A stretch of 33,934 nucleotides of DNA from Gammaproteobacteria bacterium. Its GTDB lineage: Bacteria > Pseudomonadota > Gammaproteobacteria > Chromatiales > Chromatiaceae. The stretch spans positions 1-33,934 of the forward strand of contig JAABSM010000041.1 of NCBI GenBank assembly GCA_011390365.1. The letters run 5' to 3'. Positions within the stretch are counted from its first letter, which is position 1, and each line of letters opens with the position of its first letter. Below are positions 2,386 to 21,173 of the stretch, piece by piece. The notes under the pieces are model-generated. The model did no database searches, was not told the origin of the DNA, and saw only the letters and a list, made by a program, of their open reading frames with translations. The translations under genes were made by a program, and so were the position numbers.

Positions 2386-2392
2386 GGTTGGA

Positions 2393-2413
2393 GGGGTGAG
2401 GGGTGAGGGGTGA
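2393..2413. repeat. three tandem GGGGTGA heptamers
   Basis: Three exact GGGGTGA units follow the pth stop codon and are trailed by degenerate GGTGAGG. The unit differs by one base from the GGGATGA heptamer of the long array at 20981-21106. Confidence 0.75.
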
Positions 2414-2479
2414 GGTGAGGCTTGAGGGGGCTGCGGAGTGTGCGGAATGATCGCGGTACGGCGCAGCGCGCCGGAGAGA

Positions 2480-5147: not shown

Positions 5148-7070
5148 TCAGCGTGGGTCCTGGCTCGCCTTGAGGCGAATCTCGACCTTGGCCTCGCTGC
5201 GCAGGTTATCCAGCATGTGCTGGTATTCGGCACGGCCCATGCTGGCGGCCAGCGAACGTTTTAACTGCTCCTTCTCGTTGTCGTCGAGCTGGCTGATGTC
5301 GCCATCCTTGACCTCGGAAAGGGCGATGAGGAGGTAGTCGCCGTTGGCGCTGGCCAGGCCCTGGTAGCGGCTCTCATCCCCTGCGGGGGCGGCCATGCGG
5401 AAGACGGCGTTGGCGATCTCGCGACCGCCCGCGGCGTTGCGCTCGACCAGATCCTTGTTGGTGAGCTCCAGTTCCAGGCTCTCGGCGATCTCCGCGAGGG
5501 TGGTGCCGCCCTCATTGAGGCTGGCCAGTTGCGTCTCGCCGCGTTCTTTCGCCTTGGCGGCGGCCTGCTGTTGTCGCAGGGTGGCGATGATCTGATCCCT
5601 GACCTCTTCCAGGGGTCTGGTGGAAGCCTCCTTGTGTTCCAGCACCCGCAGCACCACCGAGTGCTCGGGGGTGATCTCGACCAGTTCGCTGTTATTGCCC
5701 TGGTAGAGCACGTCGTCACTGAAGGCGGCGGCGGTCAATTTGGGGTTGCGGAACAGGCCGCTGGCGCCCTGGCGGGGGATCCAGTCGCTGTGCTGGATTT
5801 CGATGCCCAGCGCGTCGGCGGCGGGGAGCAGGGTGGTGGGCTCTTCGTAGGCCAGGTCGGCGAGGCGCTCGGCGTAGTCGTAGTAGACCCGTTCCGCCTC
5901 GGCGCGCAGGTGGGCCTCCTCGACTTCGGGGCGGGCCTCCTCGAAGGATTTGCCGCCCGCTGGCTGGATGCCGGTGACCTGGATGATGTGGTAGCCGAAG
6001 ACGGAGCGCACCGGCTCGCTGACGGCGCCCTCTTCGAGGGCGAAGGCGGCTCCCTCGAAGGCGGGGTCCATCACGTCACGCCCGAAGAAGCCGAGGTCGC
6101 CGCCCTGCTGGGCGGAGCCGGGATCCTGGGAGAGCGCCTTGGCGACTTCGCCGAAATCCTCGCCGGTCAGGATACGCTCACGGGCGGCCTGGGCCTGCTT
6201 GAGGGCATCTTCGATCTGGGCCTCGTCGGCGCCCTCTTCGGCGAGGAAGAGGATGTGGGAGGCGCGGCGGCGCTCGGGGGTGGTGTAATTCTGCTTGTGC
6301 TGCTCATAGTAGGCGCGCAGGGTCGTCTCGTCCGCCTCCAGGGTGTCGGCGATGGCGGCGCGGTCGAGTTCGATGTAGCCGACCTTTACCTGCTCGGGGG
6401 CGATAAAGTCCTGGGTGTGCTCATCGTAATAGGCCTGGATCGCATCGTCGCTGGGCGGATCTTCCGGGATGTGCGCGGAGGCGGGAATGGTCAGATAGGC
6501 GAAGCTGCGCTGTTGGCCGCGCAGGCGCAGGCTTTCGGCCAGCTCCTGATCGGTGACCCAGGCGGTGCCGGAGATGGCGTTCTCCAATTGGTCGCTGATC
6601 AGGCCGCGATACATGCGTTCCTCGAAGCCCTGGGGGGAGAGGCCCTGGGAGCGGAGGGTGCGCTCGTAGGCCTCCATGCTGAAACGACCGTTGACCTGAA
6701 AGACCGGGATGCGAGCGATCTCGGCGCGCACCAGGGCGTCGCCGGCCTTCATGCCAAGCTCGTCCGCCTTTTGCACGACCAGCTCGTCACGCACCATGGA
6801 TTCCAGGGTCTCCTGGCGAAGCATGGTCTCGTCGAACAGGTCGGGGCGATAGGCGTCGCCCAGGCGCTGGCGCAGTTGCGCGCGATAGTCACGGTAGCGC
6901 CCTTCGAAGGCCCTTTCGGTGATTTCGGTGTTGTTTACCTTGGCGACGACCGGCTCGGATCCGACCCCCAGGTACTCCTGGATGCCCCACAGGGCGAATG
7001 GGATGGAGATGAGGATGACGATGAGCCAAGCGATCCAGCCTTGGGCGCGATCCCTGATGGATTGAAGCAT
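5148..7070 (-). CDS. ppiD: PpiD-type periplasmic folding chaperone (SurA_N/parvulin)
   Basis: A 640-residue membrane-anchored chaperone attending proteins as they leave the Sec translocon. One N-terminal transmembrane helix (about 13-31, WIAWLIVILISIPFALWGI) is followed by a SurA_N-like segment to about 180. A parvulin domain is at about 265-365 (ASHILFL, GGDLGFFGRDVMDPAFEGAAF, VFGYHIIQV) and a second, degenerate parvulin-like region lies at the C-terminus. The length agrees with E. coli PpiD (about 620). It is placed directly after the hupB-tRNA unit, the order known in enterics and pseudomonads apart from the tRNAs. A terminator at 7115-7143 separates it from the tRNAs, so it probably has its own promoter in 7071-7114. 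Confidence 0.93.
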   Translation of the reverse strand: MLQSIRDRAQGWIAWLIVILISIPFALWGIQEYLGVGSEPVVAKVNNTEITERAFEGRYRDYRAQLRQRLGDAYRPDLFDETMLRQETLESMVRDELVVQKADELGMKAGDALVRAEIARIPVFQVNGRFSMEAYERTLRSQGLSPQGFEERMYRGLISDQLENAISGTAWVTDQELAESLRLRGQQRSFAYLTIPASAHIPEDPPSDDAIQAYYDEHTQDFIAPEQVKVGYIELDRAAIADTLEADETTLRAYYEQHKQNYTTPERRRASHILFLAEEGADEAQIEDALKQAQAARERILTGEDFGEVAKALSQDPGSAQQGGDLGFFGRDVMDPAFEGAAFALEEGAVSEPVRSVFGYHIIQVTGIQPAGGKSFEEARPEVEEAHLRAEAERVYYDYAERLADLAYEEPTTLLPAADALGIEIQHSDWIPRQGASGLFRNPKLTAAAFSDDVLYQGNNSELVEITPEHSVVLRVLEHKEASTRPLEEVRDQIIATLRQQQAAAKAKERGETQLASLNEGGTTLAEIAESLELELTNKDLVERNAAGGREIANAVFRMAAPAGDESRYQGLASANGDYLLIALSEVKDGDISQLDDNEKEQLKRSLAASMGRAEYQHMLDNLRSEAKVEIRLKASQDPR

Positions 7071-14163: not shown

Positions 14164-14248
<85 letters not shown>

Positions 14249-14269
14249 CTGTAAAAAATCGAACGCGTG

Positions 14270-14298
14270 ATTATAGACCACTGAGCGCCGCTTGTCTT
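14270..14298 (-). promoter_or_regulatory. promoter of tRNA-Leu
   Basis: On the minus strand AAGACA (14298-14293), a 17-base spacer, then a perfect TATAAT (14275-14270). Transcription would start near 14263, about 15 bases before the tRNA. Confidence 0.75.
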
Positions 14299-14414
14299 GG
14301 GGAATTCAACCAGCCTTTGATTCCGTTTTAACCCGCGATGCGTCAGCGGGGGAGTCCGGCCCATGCCATACTCACTGTACCCGTTGGCACTGTGACGGCG
14401 GCGGTGCGCTGGAT

Positions 14415-14669
14415 TCACGCCACCCATCGCTCGGTAATCGCCTCCTTGCCCTCCACCTGAGCCGCAGCCTCTTGCTGATGGCTCAGGATCCAGTCCAAGG
14501 CCAGCGCCAGCAGTTTCAGGCGGTGGTGTGGAGGCATGGCCAGGGCGGTCTGGATCTCCGGTGGCGTGGTCCCCGCGGGTCTTTGTGTAGCGAAGCCCGC
14601 TGACGCCTCGCCCACGCCTCCTCTGCCAATGGAATCCGTCATCCCGACCACAGCCTGCCCCTGGGAAGG
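14415..14669 (-). other. unassigned DNA next to the hsd wreckage
   Basis: This stretch shows no gene I recognise. One minus-strand frame is open and could read as the tail of a protein (PPHHRLKLLALALDWILSHQ and KEAITERW, ending at 14415), continuing from the hsdR scrap in another frame. It has no ribosome-binding site or start of its own. It may be a third gene fragment. 14299-14414 also shows nothing recognisable. Confidence 0.3.
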
Positions 14670-14670
14670 C

Positions 14671-15150
14671 AGCATCAAACCCGGTCAGCCACATATCCCG
14701 CACGATCACCAGCCGCAGCGGGTCCTTGGAGCGGTCGGCCTCATCATTCATGCCGATGGTGGAGAGCAGGTCGATCAGTTCGCCGAGCATGACCTTGTTC
14801 AGCGCCGGGCGGGCGTACTCCTTGGGCGGCACGCCCTTGAGGCCGTCATTGCTCTTTATCCAGGGCGAGCATGGCGTCGTCGATGAACTTGCCGATCTTT
14901 TCGCTCTTGGCGTTGGCCTGGCGCCTGGACCAGCGGGCCGCGGGCGGGACCCAGAAGACGTTTGCGGCGATGTAGTCGTCGCGGCCGCGGGATCGGCGAC
15001 CTCGACCTGGAGGATTTGGTAGCGGGCCTCGAAGGCGTCGGAGATGTATTTGAGGAAGATCAGGCCGAGCACGATGTGCTTGTACCCGCTGGGCTCCATG
15101 TTGCCGCGTAGCTTGTCGGCGGCGAGGCCAGTAGAGTTGCGCCATCCTGG
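14671..15150 (-). pseudogene. type I restriction-modification remnant: hsdM 5' part joined to an hsdR scrap
   Basis: Read leftward in three frames, the sequence gives AADKLRGNMEPSGYKHIVLG and LIFLKYISDAFEARYQ, then DDYIAANVFWVPPAARW and SEKIGKFIDDAMLALDKEQ, then PPKEYARPALNKVMLGELID and GMNDEADRSKD. This is the N-terminal helical domain of an HsdM methyltransferase. Directly after it comes LVIVRDMWLTGFDA (14672-14718), a conserved helicase-domain segment of HsdR. The whole methyltransferase catalytic domain, hsdS and nearly all of hsdR are therefore deleted. At least two frameshifts lie inside the hsdM part. It is clearly dead. It sits between ychF and the tRNA-Leu promoter, facing away from ychF. 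Confidence 0.85.
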
Positions 15151-15260
15151 CCATTCGAATCCCCGCAAGGGTGGCTGGGCAAGTCGATCGGTTTTCAAAA
15201 AGGCCCAAAACGCTTATCCTTGCCCACCTTTACGAACAGATCAGCCTACGGAACACGCTC

Positions 15261-18198: not shown

Positions 18199-19320
18199 AT
18201 GGAGCCGGTTCGCATCGACTATCGGATTCGCCTGGATAACGGGCGGACCGAGACCTTCAAATTCGTACTCGACGGCAGAAGTTTCGATCTGATACCGCAA
18301 AAGGTTGTCGATCCGCCGGACTGGACCCGCCTCGGCTATCGCCAGTGCCAGCACTGCGGCCTGGCTGAGACAGCGCGCCCCTACTGCCCGCTGGCGCTCC
18401 AGCTGCATGGTCTGGTGGAGGCGTTTCATGACACCCGCTCCATCGACGAGGTGGTGCTCGATGTGGTGACCGTGGATCGGCGGGTGATCCAGCGGGTCGC
18501 CCTGCAACAGGCGATCGCCTCCATGCTCGACCTGATCTGGCCCATCTGCGGCTGTCCCAAGACCACCAACATGAAGCCCCTCGCCCGCTTCCACCTGCCC
18601 GTCGCCTCGGAAGAGGAGACGGTCTTCCGGGTTACCGGCATGCACCTGTTGGGCCAGTATTTCCGCAGTCACTACGGTGACTCCGCCGCGATCGAGTTCG
18701 ACGGCCTGGCGAAGATGTACGAGGACTACCATGTCCTTAACAAGTCATTGGCGAGTCGTCTGCAAGAGGTGACCCGTTCCGATTCGGTGAAGAACGCCAT
18801 CACCCTGCTCGACATGTACTCGATGCTGGTACCGGCGCTGCTGGATGACCAGCTGGCGGAGATGCGCCCCTTCTTCGAGGCCTACCTGCCGGAAGGGGGC
18901 GCGGCCCCCGCGGCCACCGCCGACCATCTCAAGAAGGCCAAGGCGTTTCGCCTGGAGCTGGTACCCATGGCCGAACCCTCGGTGAAGAAGGTGGATTATA
19001 TCGACGCCGCGCTGGCGACCGAGGAGGGGGGGGAGGGCGCCGCCATCGACCGCGAGGATCATGAGGCGAAGGCGGCCAGGGAGCGGGAGCGGGAAGCGCG
19101 CAAGGCGCAGGCCGTGGCCGAGGCGCGGGCACGCGAAAAGGAGGCGGCGGAGGCGATCCTTAGCGGCTCTTCCCTGTCGCTGGCACTGGAGCCGCTGGAT
19201 GGCGACGACGTCAAGCAGAAGCGATCCAAGGACGAGATCTTCCGGATGGCGGAAGAGGAAGAGGGGGCCTCCCGGGACAAGGGCGGCAAGGAGAGTATCT
19301 TTCTGGTCAATGACGATTAG
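18199..19320 (+). CDS. DUF6901-like conserved protein with Cys motifs and charged tail
   Basis: A 373-residue cytosolic protein without signal peptide or helices. Residues 1-210 match my recollection of the DUF6901 family pattern: PDWTRLGYRQCQHCGL followed by CPLA, CGCPKT, and LARFHLPVASEEETVFR. The cysteines C50, C53, C63, C117 and C119 look like a metal site, though no function is known. From about 240 the protein leaves the family and becomes low-complexity. A highly charged coiled-coil-like stretch (about 285-320, Arg/Glu/Ala) precedes the end SIFLVNDD. GGAAGGGAG precedes the start. A TACAAT at about 18162 may be its -10. The amidoligase starts 22 bases downstream, so it leads a three-gene operon. 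Confidence 0.75.
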   Translation: MEPVRIDYRIRLDNGRTETFKFVLDGRSFDLIPQKVVDPPDWTRLGYRQCQHCGLAETARPYCPLALQLHGLVEAFHDTRSIDEVVLDVVTVDRRVIQRVALQQAIASMLDLIWPICGCPKTTNMKPLARFHLPVASEEETVFRVTGMHLLGQYFRSHYGDSAAIEFDGLAKMYEDYHVLNKSLASRLQEVTRSDSVKNAITLLDMYSMLVPALLDDQLAEMRPFFEAYLPEGGAAPAATADHLKKAKAFRLELVPMAEPSVKKVDYIDAALATEEGGEGAAIDREDHEAKAAREREREARKAQAVAEARAREKEAAEAILSGSSLSLALEPLDGDDVKQKRSKDEIFRMAEEEEGASRDKGGKESIFLVNDD

Positions 19321-19342
19321 CCGGCGGCAAGGGTGACGATGT

Positions 19343-20329
19343 ATGCATGATCGCGGCGATTTCCGGTTGCCGCCCCGTCCGTACCGAGAAGATGGGGCGG
19401 CGCGCAAGGTTGGGTTTGAACTGGAGTTCTCCGGCATCACCCAACGCCAGGCGGTGGAAGCGGTGCGTTCCGCCATGGGCGGCGAGGTGCTCTCCGAAAC
19501 CTCGGCGGAGACGCGGCTCGAGGTGGCGGGGTTGGGGCCATTCAATATCGAGCTCGACTGGGCCTACCTCAAACGCAAGGCGGGCGAGGCGGGGCGGGGC
19601 GAGATCGATGGCGAATGGATCGAACACCTCAGCAGCGCCGCGTCGCTGCTGGTTCCCGTCGAGGTGGTTTGCCCGCCGATCCCGATTACCGAGCTGGAGA
19701 GCCTCAATGCGCTGACCCAGGCCCTGCATGACGCCGGCGCCACCGGCACCGAGGAGTCCTTCATCGCCGCCTACGGAGTACACATCAACCCCGAGATCCC
19801 GCGCCTGGACGCCACCACCCTGCTCGCCTACATCCAGGCCTTCGCGGCTCTGCAATGGTGGCTGTTCGACGCCCACGAGGTGGACATGTCGCGGCGCATC
19901 AGCCCCTATATTGATCCCTATCCCGATGCCTATCTCAAGCAGGTGCTGTCCCGCTCCAGCGCGAGCATGGACCAGATCTTCGACGACTACTTCGCCTACA
20001 ACGCCACCCGCAATCGCGCCCTGGACCTGTTGCCGATGCTGGCGGAGGTGGATGAAAAAAGGGTACGGCAAACGGTGGATGACCCCAAGGTCAAGGCGCG
20101 TCCCGCCTTTCACTACCGTTTACCCAACTGCCATATCGAACGCGACGACTGGGGTCTGGCCGACTCGTGGAATCTGTGGTGCGTGGTCGAGCGTGTCGCC
20201 GACCGGCGGGATGATCTGCGAGAGTTGGCCGATGCCTTCAGCAACGCGGATCGGCCGCTGCTGGGGGTCAGCCGCGGCGATTGGGTGAGGTTCATGGATC
20301 AATGGCTGCGAGACCGCGAGTTGGTGTAA
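19343..20329 (+). CDS. putative amidoligase (Amidoligase_2, glutamine synthetase-like fold)
   Basis: A 328-residue predicted ATP-dependent carboxylate-amine ligase of the Amidoligase_2 family. Signature segments are visible: KVGFELEFSG with G24, E26 and E28 (metal/ATP-binding GxExEF); FNIELDW with E70 and D72; VEVVCPPIP with E107; YGVHINPE with H147 and N149; and a C-terminal FHYRLPN patch. The family is related to glutamine synthetase and is predicted from comparative genomics to form isopeptide or amide bonds in unknown metabolites or peptides. Its gene lies 22 bases after the DUF6901-like gene and overlaps the amidotransferase by 28 bases, so the two enzymes probably act in one pathway. 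The substrate is unknown. Confidence 0.85.
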   Translation: MHDRGDFRLPPRPYREDGAARKVGFELEFSGITQRQAVEAVRSAMGGEVLSETSAETRLEVAGLGPFNIELDWAYLKRKAGEAGRGEIDGEWIEHLSSAASLLVPVEVVCPPIPITELESLNALTQALHDAGATGTEESFIAAYGVHINPEIPRLDATTLLAYIQAFAALQWWLFDAHEVDMSRRISPYIDPYPDAYLKQVLSRSSASMDQIFDDYFAYNATRNRALDLLPMLAEVDEKRVRQTVDDPKVKARPAFHYRLPNCHIERDDWGLADSWNLWCVVERVADRRDDLRELADAFSNADRPLLGVSRGDWVRFMDQWLRDRELV

Positions 20330-20964
20330 CCGGCAATGGCCGTCGCTGGGCGCCGAGCTGGTGGTGCACCTGGCTGGCGCTGCGTCTGGCCGGGGCGACC
20401 CCGGAACGGATCAGCGTGCGTCACGGTCCCAGCGGCGAACCCCTCGACGCGCTGATCATCGGCGGCGGCAACGACATCGGCCCGGAGCACTACGGCGGCG
20501 ATATCGAGGCCAAGGTCAAGGCCGACCCGGCCCGCGACCGGCTGGAGATCTTCTGGATCGAACGGGCGCTGGAGCGGGGCATCCCCCTGCTCGGCATCTG
20601 TCGCGGCGCGCAACTGATCAACATCGTCCTCGGCGGCAACCTGTTCCAGGATATCCGCGACATGCGCAAACACACCCATAACCGGCCAGGACTCTTGCCC
20701 ACCAAGCGGGTCAATCTGCAAGCCGACTCCGGTCTGGCCCAGGTCTGCGGCAAGGGACGGCTGCGGGTCAACAGTCTCCACCACCAGGCCATAGACCGTC
20801 CGGGCAAGGACCTGCGGGTGGTGGGGCGGGATCTCGACGAGATCGCGCAGGCGGTGGAGTGTACCGCCGGGAGACCCATCATCGGGGTGCAGTGGCATCC
20901 GGAGTATCTCTTCTATCTCCCGTCTCAATTCGCCCTGTTTCGCTGGCTCTCGCGGCGAGCATGA
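20302..20964 (+). CDS. class I glutamine amidotransferase / peptidase C26-like hydrolase
   Basis: A 220-residue enzyme of the class I amidotransferase fold. The nucleophile elbow GICRGAQ carries C100, and HPE near the end gives H199 and E201, completing the triad. RVNSLHHQ is the segment that in PuuD-like gamma-glutamyl hydrolases helps bind substrate. It most resembles gamma-glutamyl-GABA hydrolase (peptidase C26) rather than biosynthetic amidotransferases. The ATG at 20302 was chosen; a TTG 21 bases earlier is possible. It overlaps the amidoligase, so translation is coupled. By analogy with the PuuA-PuuD pair, one enzyme may make and the other cleave a gamma-glutamyl-type amide; this is inference. 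Confidence 0.85.
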   Translation: MAARPRVGVTGNGRRWAPSWWCTWLALRLAGATPERISVRHGPSGEPLDALIIGGGNDIGPEHYGGDIEAKVKADPARDRLEIFWIERALERGIPLLGICRGAQLINIVLGGNLFQDIRDMRKHTHNRPGLLPTKRVNLQADSGLAQVCGKGRLRVNSLHHQAIDRPGKDLRVVGRDLDEIAQAVECTAGRPIIGVQWHPEYLFYLPSQFALFRWLSRRA

Positions 20965-20980
20965 TGGGGCTGAGTGATGA

Positions 20981-21106
20981 GGGATGAGGGATGAGGGATG
21001 AGGGATGAGGGATGAGGGATGAGGGATGAGGGATGAGGGATGAGGGATGAGGGATGAGGGATGAGGGATGAGGGATGAGGGATGAGGGATGAGGGATGAG
21101 GGATGA
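20981..21106. repeat. 18 perfect tandem GGGATGA heptamers
   Basis: Eighteen identical 7-base units run for 126 bases starting 17 bases after the amidotransferase stop. There are no interruptions or spacers, so it is a minisatellite and not a CRISPR array. It contains no T-run or dyad. A one-base variant, GGGGTGA, is present three times after pth (2393-2413). Confidence 0.95.
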
Positions 21107-21107
21107 G

Positions 21108-21173
21108 GTAACCGTTCGCCTCCCCCGGTGGGGGAGGGGGACCGTTCGTTTTGGGTAGGGGGTGAACGGTTAC
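21108..21173. repeat. inverted-repeat element beside the heptamer array
   Basis: GTAACCGTTC (21108-21117) and GAACGGTTAC (21164-21173) are exact 10-base inverted arms around a 46-base G-rich core that itself holds CCCCC/GGGGG stretches. It is MITE-like in form, without recognised target duplications. 21174-21363 shows nothing I can name. Confidence 0.6.

Follow-up and report, generated by a model that had tools for sequence, protein, structure and literature searches.

An amidoligase–Peptidase C26 gene pair conserved across distant genomes, with DUF6901 as an apparent bystander

The Amidoligase_2 and Peptidase C26 genes of a Chromatiaceae genome form a real conserved unit: their pairing goes beyond chance, and they lie adjacent in distant genomes. 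The two proteins probably constitute a make-and-break unit like PuuA and PuuD, with the DUF6901 gene upstream as a chance neighbour. The third gene that does recur with the pair encodes a YqaA-like membrane protein, not DUF6901. These results remove DUF6901 as a candidate partner and direct experiments to the right genes.

The locus and the conserved pair

The window (the whole stretch of DNA analysed, 33,934 nucleotides) spans the full length of contig C105; in the 4.26-Mb genome to which this contig belongs, a genome-wide search gave one match to the window amidoligase. Three genes lie on its forward strand. The first (18199–19320) encodes a 373-residue DUF6901 protein with four invariant cysteines and a charged tail (PF21842, E 2.1e-59 over residues 6–227, 201.1 bits against a cut-off of 27 in the Pfam scan), which we judge to lie outside the system. 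The second (19343–20329) encodes a 328-residue Amidoligase_2 protein of the glutamine-synthetase fold, a predicted ATP-dependent amide ligase (PF12224, E 5e-68, 230.1 bits against a cut-off of 22, profile positions 3–244 of 245). The third (20302–20964) encodes a Peptidase_C26, or class I glutamine-amidotransferase-like, hydrolase with the triad C100-H199-E201 (PF07722, E 6.8e-47, 160.5 bits against a cut-off of 20.5, profile positions 59–219 of 219). A gap of 22 bases (19321–19342) separates the first two genes, and the last two overlap by 28 bases, as a sequence-only reading of this DNA had described; the overlap holds for the C26 ATG at 20302, and becomes 49 bases for the alternative TTG start at 20281 given by a mechanical ORF list.

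In an hmmscan at E values up to 1, the only match of the amidoligase besides Amidoligase_2 was a weak one to MreB, and C26 also matches the PF00117 GATase family, far more weakly than Peptidase_C26 (E 1.6e-12). None of the three window proteins reaches the cut-off of an NCBIfam model; the best match of C26 is gamma-glutamyl-GABA hydrolase, at 68.5 of 266 bits and well under the cut-off.

The sequence-only reading had assigned active-site residues to the amidoligase and a full triad to C26, and both assignments hold across homologues. In the amidoligase, the acidic residues E26, E28, E70, D72, and E107 are invariant in 56/56 sequences (the window protein and 55 of the 78 usable named amidoligases); N149, R184, R223, R253, H257, and R259 are also invariant. 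The C26 triad is invariant in 30/30 (the window protein and 29 of the 74 usable named C26 genes). Replacement of the triad or the acidic residues in homologues, which that reading had said would count against it, was thus not seen. The predicted model of the amidoligase has the glutamine-synthetase fold (the catalytic domain of glutamine synthetase and its kin); against solved structures, the protein gave chance-level matches only, with E values of 0.24 by sequence and 0.18 as a profile. Solved relatives of the window C26 include Lin1909 and PuuD, and the ICRG nucleophile motif is common to its alignments with Lin1909 and with a probable amidotransferase.

How constant is the pairing? In the named set, C26 lies directly 3′ of the amidoligase in 76 of 80 loci; this sample leans to close kin, since it keeps the best 80 of at least 580 confirmed relatives. 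The four loci lacking C26 are L134, which stops at a contig edge, and L177, L178, and L185. In a second set, 20 regions with wide flanks were taken from 25 other Amidoligase_2 places at the class and family levels, and C26 follows the amidoligase in 18 of them; the window protein detects the amidoligase in 19 of these regions (L090 holds a divergent Amidoligase_2, and L104 has no C26). Among the remaining five places, C26 is present in the short loci L037, L039, and L048, while L032 and L056 are unmatched by the window amidoligase. Finally, in a phylum sample of 398 genomes (22 positive), C26 is found in 19 of 21 loci, the window itself being left out. The three counts do not add up to one total, because the samples overlap in part: genome G072 is shared between the phylum and class sets, and for the named and class/family sets, two tree rows are duplicates and the contigs of L094/L160 and of L096/L163 have equal lengths. 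Eleven plasmid records also match the amidoligase; of the three inspected, two alphaproteobacterial plasmids carry the pair and an Azospirillum argentinense plasmid (L208) carries the amidoligase with no adjoining C26.

Of the 72 pairs scored, 66 have overlapping reading frames, and in 39 the overlap is exactly 28 bases; the scoring chose the in-frame start closest to the position at which the window protein begins in the alignment, and so favours 28 (usable input: 78 of the 80 named amidoligases and 74 of the 76 C26 genes).

As a separate observation, the Amidoligase_2 proteins of L032 and L041 score 242 and 244 bits against PF12224, above the 230 bits of the window protein, yet give no tblastn match to the window amidoligase at 1e-4. 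They therefore appear, by these scores, to be a separate subfamily.

DUF6901, the upstream gene

The DUF6901 gene lies 22 bases upstream of the amidoligase gene on the same strand, and its co-transcription with the pair in this one genome is therefore likely. The sequence-only reading went further: it placed all three genes in one operon and a possible modification pathway, in which the charged DUF6901 tail could be a substrate. Its description of the protein itself is accurate. The window protein has five cysteines (50, 53, 63, 117, and 119), four of which (C50, C53, C63, and C119) are invariant in 21/21 aligned proteins and likely form a metal or Fe-S site, to judge from the alignment. The tail (residues 240–373) is 43% charged, rich in Glu and Lys, and free of Cys.

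The spacing, the shared strand, and the Glu- and Lys-rich tail all suit modification of DUF6901 by the ligase, but the comparative evidence speaks against it. DUF6901 is next to the amidoligase in 0/80 named, 0/20 class/family, and 0/21 phylum-sample loci. Conversely, 30 wide-flank DUF6901 regions (20 + 10, drawn from the 50 places besides that of the window, some shortened by contig ends, and including the second copy of this genome) contain no amidoligase, C26, or YqaA gene, and the pair is absent from ten further DUF6901 places within flanks of about 1.5 kb. Thus, of the proposed three-gene operon, the amidoligase–C26 part is conserved and the linkage to DUF6901 is not.

Co-occurrence at the genome level, which the sequence-only reading had suggested as a check and whose absence it had said would refute it, is at the chance level as well. 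Among 274 genomes of the class sample, DUF6901 occurs in 32 (31 above the cut-off) and Amidoligase_2 in 17; they occur together in 3, against 1.99 expected (hypergeometric p 0.32 counting this genome and 0.56 leaving it out). The three are this genome; G199, whose Amidoligase_2 match is weak (E 2.7e-11); and G242, in which about 25 kb separates the nearest copies of the two genes. In the family genome G276, both genes are present on different contigs. DUF6901 was found in 3 of 49 searched amidoligase-bearing genomes (drawn from the 80 named loci), as compared with the 32/274 of the class sample, and in 10 of 147 family genomes.

The long tail has a similarly narrow distribution. Besides the window protein, it is present in one of 20 other aligned homologues (L088, in genome G015), which is 55% identical to the window protein and lies in a region sharing no other window gene. 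Genome G015 gave no Amidoligase_2 match, and the tail is therefore not tied to the ligase. We consider modification of the tail as part of a three-gene pathway highly improbable; DUF6901 looks like a bystander, a chance neighbour of the amidoligase–C26 pair.

Elsewhere, DUF6901 looks like a solitary gene by its sequence context, since no constant partner appears among its neighbours: the commonest family was the response-regulator domain, in 5 of 50 scanned flanking ORFs, among the 25 of 84 Pfam families listed. The scan covered 50 of the 58 flanking ORFs of the 30 regions, chosen by length alone, and some of them are probably spurious. A single-sequence AlphaFold2 model of the protein had a mean pLDDT of 44, its profile gave only chance-level matches to solved structures (E 0.12 or worse), and we found no mention of “DUF6901” in the literature searched. 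The second DUF6901 copy of this genome (L089; G000:C160:13992-14663) adjoins a 707-residue ORF with DinB, FGE-sulfatase, and methyltransferase domains, a domain make-up that we take to be ovothiol-synthase-like.

The reaction of the pair and related systems

How might the two enzymes work together? In the make-and-break reading that we favour, the amidoligase would activate a carboxylate at the expense of ATP and couple it to an amine; this carboxylate is most likely the gamma-carboxyl group of glutamate. C26, co-translated with the ligase, would then hydrolyse the resulting amide. Together the two steps would let the cell cap an amine or amino acid and later release it, as PuuA and PuuD do on either side of the putrescine pathway. 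We infer the use of ATP, glutamate as the acyl donor, and one amide common to both enzymes; in the literature searched, we found no assigned reaction for the Amidoligase_2 family. According to excerpts of one source, PuuA and PuuD of E. coli are a ligase and a hydrolase acting on gamma-glutamyl amides (PMC9397018). The window C26 is related in sequence to PuuD, whereas the window ligase belongs to Amidoligase_2 and PuuA to the Gln-synt family. Aldehyde dehydrogenases, which a Puu-like catabolic route would lead one to expect and which were the Puu-type genes searched for by name, lie close to no more than 6 of 100 amidoligase loci. Puu-like catabolism was rejected as the general role on this count.

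Alternatively, C26 might be a glutaminase that channels ammonia to the amidoligase, which would amidate a carboxyl group as MurT–GatD does on peptidoglycan. In the excerpts available of two sources, MurT–GatD combines a Mur-ligase-like ligase with a glutamine amidotransferase (PMC3267633, PMC5871853). The window pair likewise consists of a ligase and a glutamine-amidotransferase-like protein; unlike the MurT described there, however, its ligase has a predicted glutamine-synthetase fold rather than a resemblance to Mur ligases. The near-fixed pairing and the overlapping frames suggest a stoichiometric complex, and the PF00117 match of C26 to the class I amidotransferase model fits a glutaminase; on the other hand, C26 is closer to the C26/PuuD-type hydrolases than to glutaminases. 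In addition, enzymes of the glutamine-synthetase fold can take free ammonia or an amine directly.

Three Halieaceae bear further on this question. In L177, L178, and L185, C26 is missing after the amidoligase (at about position 5972), and these loci keep the same following gene as three C26-bearing sisters. A C26 match at E 0.001 is absent from the three genomes and present in 3/3 sister genomes; the three are metagenome assemblies of unstated completeness, and a very divergent C26 substitute would escape this search. Their amidoligases are 93–94% identical to each other, and we therefore count one event. With dN/dS values of 0.09–0.10, the ligase appears to do selected work with no detected C26, and apparently does not depend on C26 for its ammonia. 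This speaks against a fixed glutaminase–ligase complex, which we regard as unlikely, and favours a separate step for C26. The same loss counts against an essential make-and-break cycle, since a hydrolase that supplied an indispensable half of it would be expected to persist in these Halieaceae; the Azospirillum plasmid amidoligase, which has no adjoining C26 either, counts against it too. The natural loss also offers a handle on the reaction, as the ligase product might accumulate in these organisms.

A defence or phage origin of the locus was also considered and rejected. PADLOC gave no match, a search at E 0.01 found no match to the window amidoligase among 50,697 phage records, and IMG/VR contigs held no relative (24 pattern matches, none confirmed); in PHROGs, C26 matched amidotransferase-type families only. 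In excerpts of two papers, phages are described as having an amidotransferase gene of the PF13522 type alongside Amidoligase_2, in one genome or cluster (PMC3890496, PMC10580990). The partner in the window, in contrast to the phage partner described there, is Peptidase C26.

Gene neighbourhoods of Amidoligase_2 with thiol hydrolases in proteobacteria were reportedly predicted by Iyer, Abhiman, Burroughs and Aravind in 2009, with the same two families side by side as a predicted ligase and thiol hydrolase. We take the amidoligase–C26 pair to be already described there and in the Pfam entry, and the novelty of the pair is therefore modest. The frequent third gene, YqaA, and the C26-less Halieaceae are not known to figure in that work, and we know of no other essential difference.

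A recurrent membrane-protein gene downstream

A YqaA-like gene lies directly downstream of the pair in 31 of the 80 named loci by tblastn. Consistently, ORF clustering of these loci yielded one further same-strand family, present just after C26 in 30 loci; the other clusters were antisense, out of frame, or confined to at most 9 loci. The protein has a VTT domain (PF09335) and shares 40% identity with E. coli YqaA, and the loci that carry it include gammaproteobacteria, Limnobacter, Desulfotignum, and the planctomycete Pla86. In a quickly built tree of 98 amidoligases, YqaA is downstream on the same strand in 41 rows; this label requires 14 parsimony changes, at least 5 of them forced by starred branches, as compared with about 31 when shuffled. 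We found no printed mention of a link between YqaA, the amidoligase, and C26 in the literature searched. The amidoligase family is said to have been predicted in 2009, and its repeated association with a membrane protein of the DedA type provides a second handle on it.

In the window, no YqaA ORF follows position 20964. A tandem array of GATGAGG (20963–21108; 21 copies with 96% matches) begins there instead, at the C26 stop codon. Among the best 80 named loci, the highest-identity relatives (Thiorhodococcus minor, T. mannitoliphagus, and Aestuariicella) carry the downstream YqaA gene, and its loss at the window locus is therefore likely, even though the nearest tree rows, L112 and L128, also lack it. 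A short GAGGGGT run is present elsewhere in the window (2391–2415).

The presence of YqaA after the pair in about 40% of the closer relatives hints that the substrate or product of the make-and-break cycle may meet the membrane. A reversible system of amide tagging, coupled to the membrane, could then have the pair as its soluble half and a YqaA-type VTT (DedA-family) protein as its frequent third member, an extension that we put forward as possible but doubtful. An alternative is modification of the envelope or a lipid: the ligase would join an amino compound to a carboxylate that is lipid-linked or on the cell surface, C26 would trim it, and the YqaA-type protein would move the product across the membrane. 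In its favour are the recurrence of YqaA in the named loci, Desulfotignum and a planctomycete included, and on the tree, and the Azospirillum plasmid, whose amidoligase has a DedA gene, UppP, and a two-component system in its vicinity. Against it stand the window operon, which lacks YqaA even though another contig of this genome holds a copy with 63% identity to the L105 protein, and the phylum sample, in which 0/21 loci have YqaA within flanks of roughly 1.5 kb. Moreover, in 7 of 20 pair-bearing genomes selected as lacking an operonic YqaA, no YqaA match was found anywhere. Weighing these points, we hold an envelope or lipid role to be improbable, and retain the make-and-break pair as the preferred reading. 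On the Azospirillum plasmid, the two-component system comes first after the amidoligase, and UppP (undecaprenyl-diphosphate phosphatase), on the opposite strand, and the DedA gene come next, all within 4 kb.

The DedA subfamily COG1238 is described, in excerpts of Todor et al., as little understood and unlikely to be an undecaprenyl phosphate flippase, and we read a methods passage of the same source as placing YqaA in COG1238 (PMC10127716). In E. coli (L215:3884-5941), yqaA is 72 bases from gshA. We take GshA to be a ligase of the glutamine synthetase superfamily; yqaA thus stands beside the gene of a second gamma-glutamyl ligase, and YqaA-type proteins may therefore transport gamma-glutamyl compounds, or lipids to which these are attached.

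Two further observations concern other parts of the window. In a check on whether the three genes arrived together, the BepA homologue in G274, a genome of the same genus, and in four family genomes was found to have none of the 12 other window genes tested nearby. An ORF on the reverse strand (14227–15198) overlaps the end of a tRNA-Leu gene (14164–14248) and matches only the HsdM N-terminal domain (residues 26–63, E 3.3e-9); it may be what is left of a restriction-modification gene, or an ORF that arose by chance.
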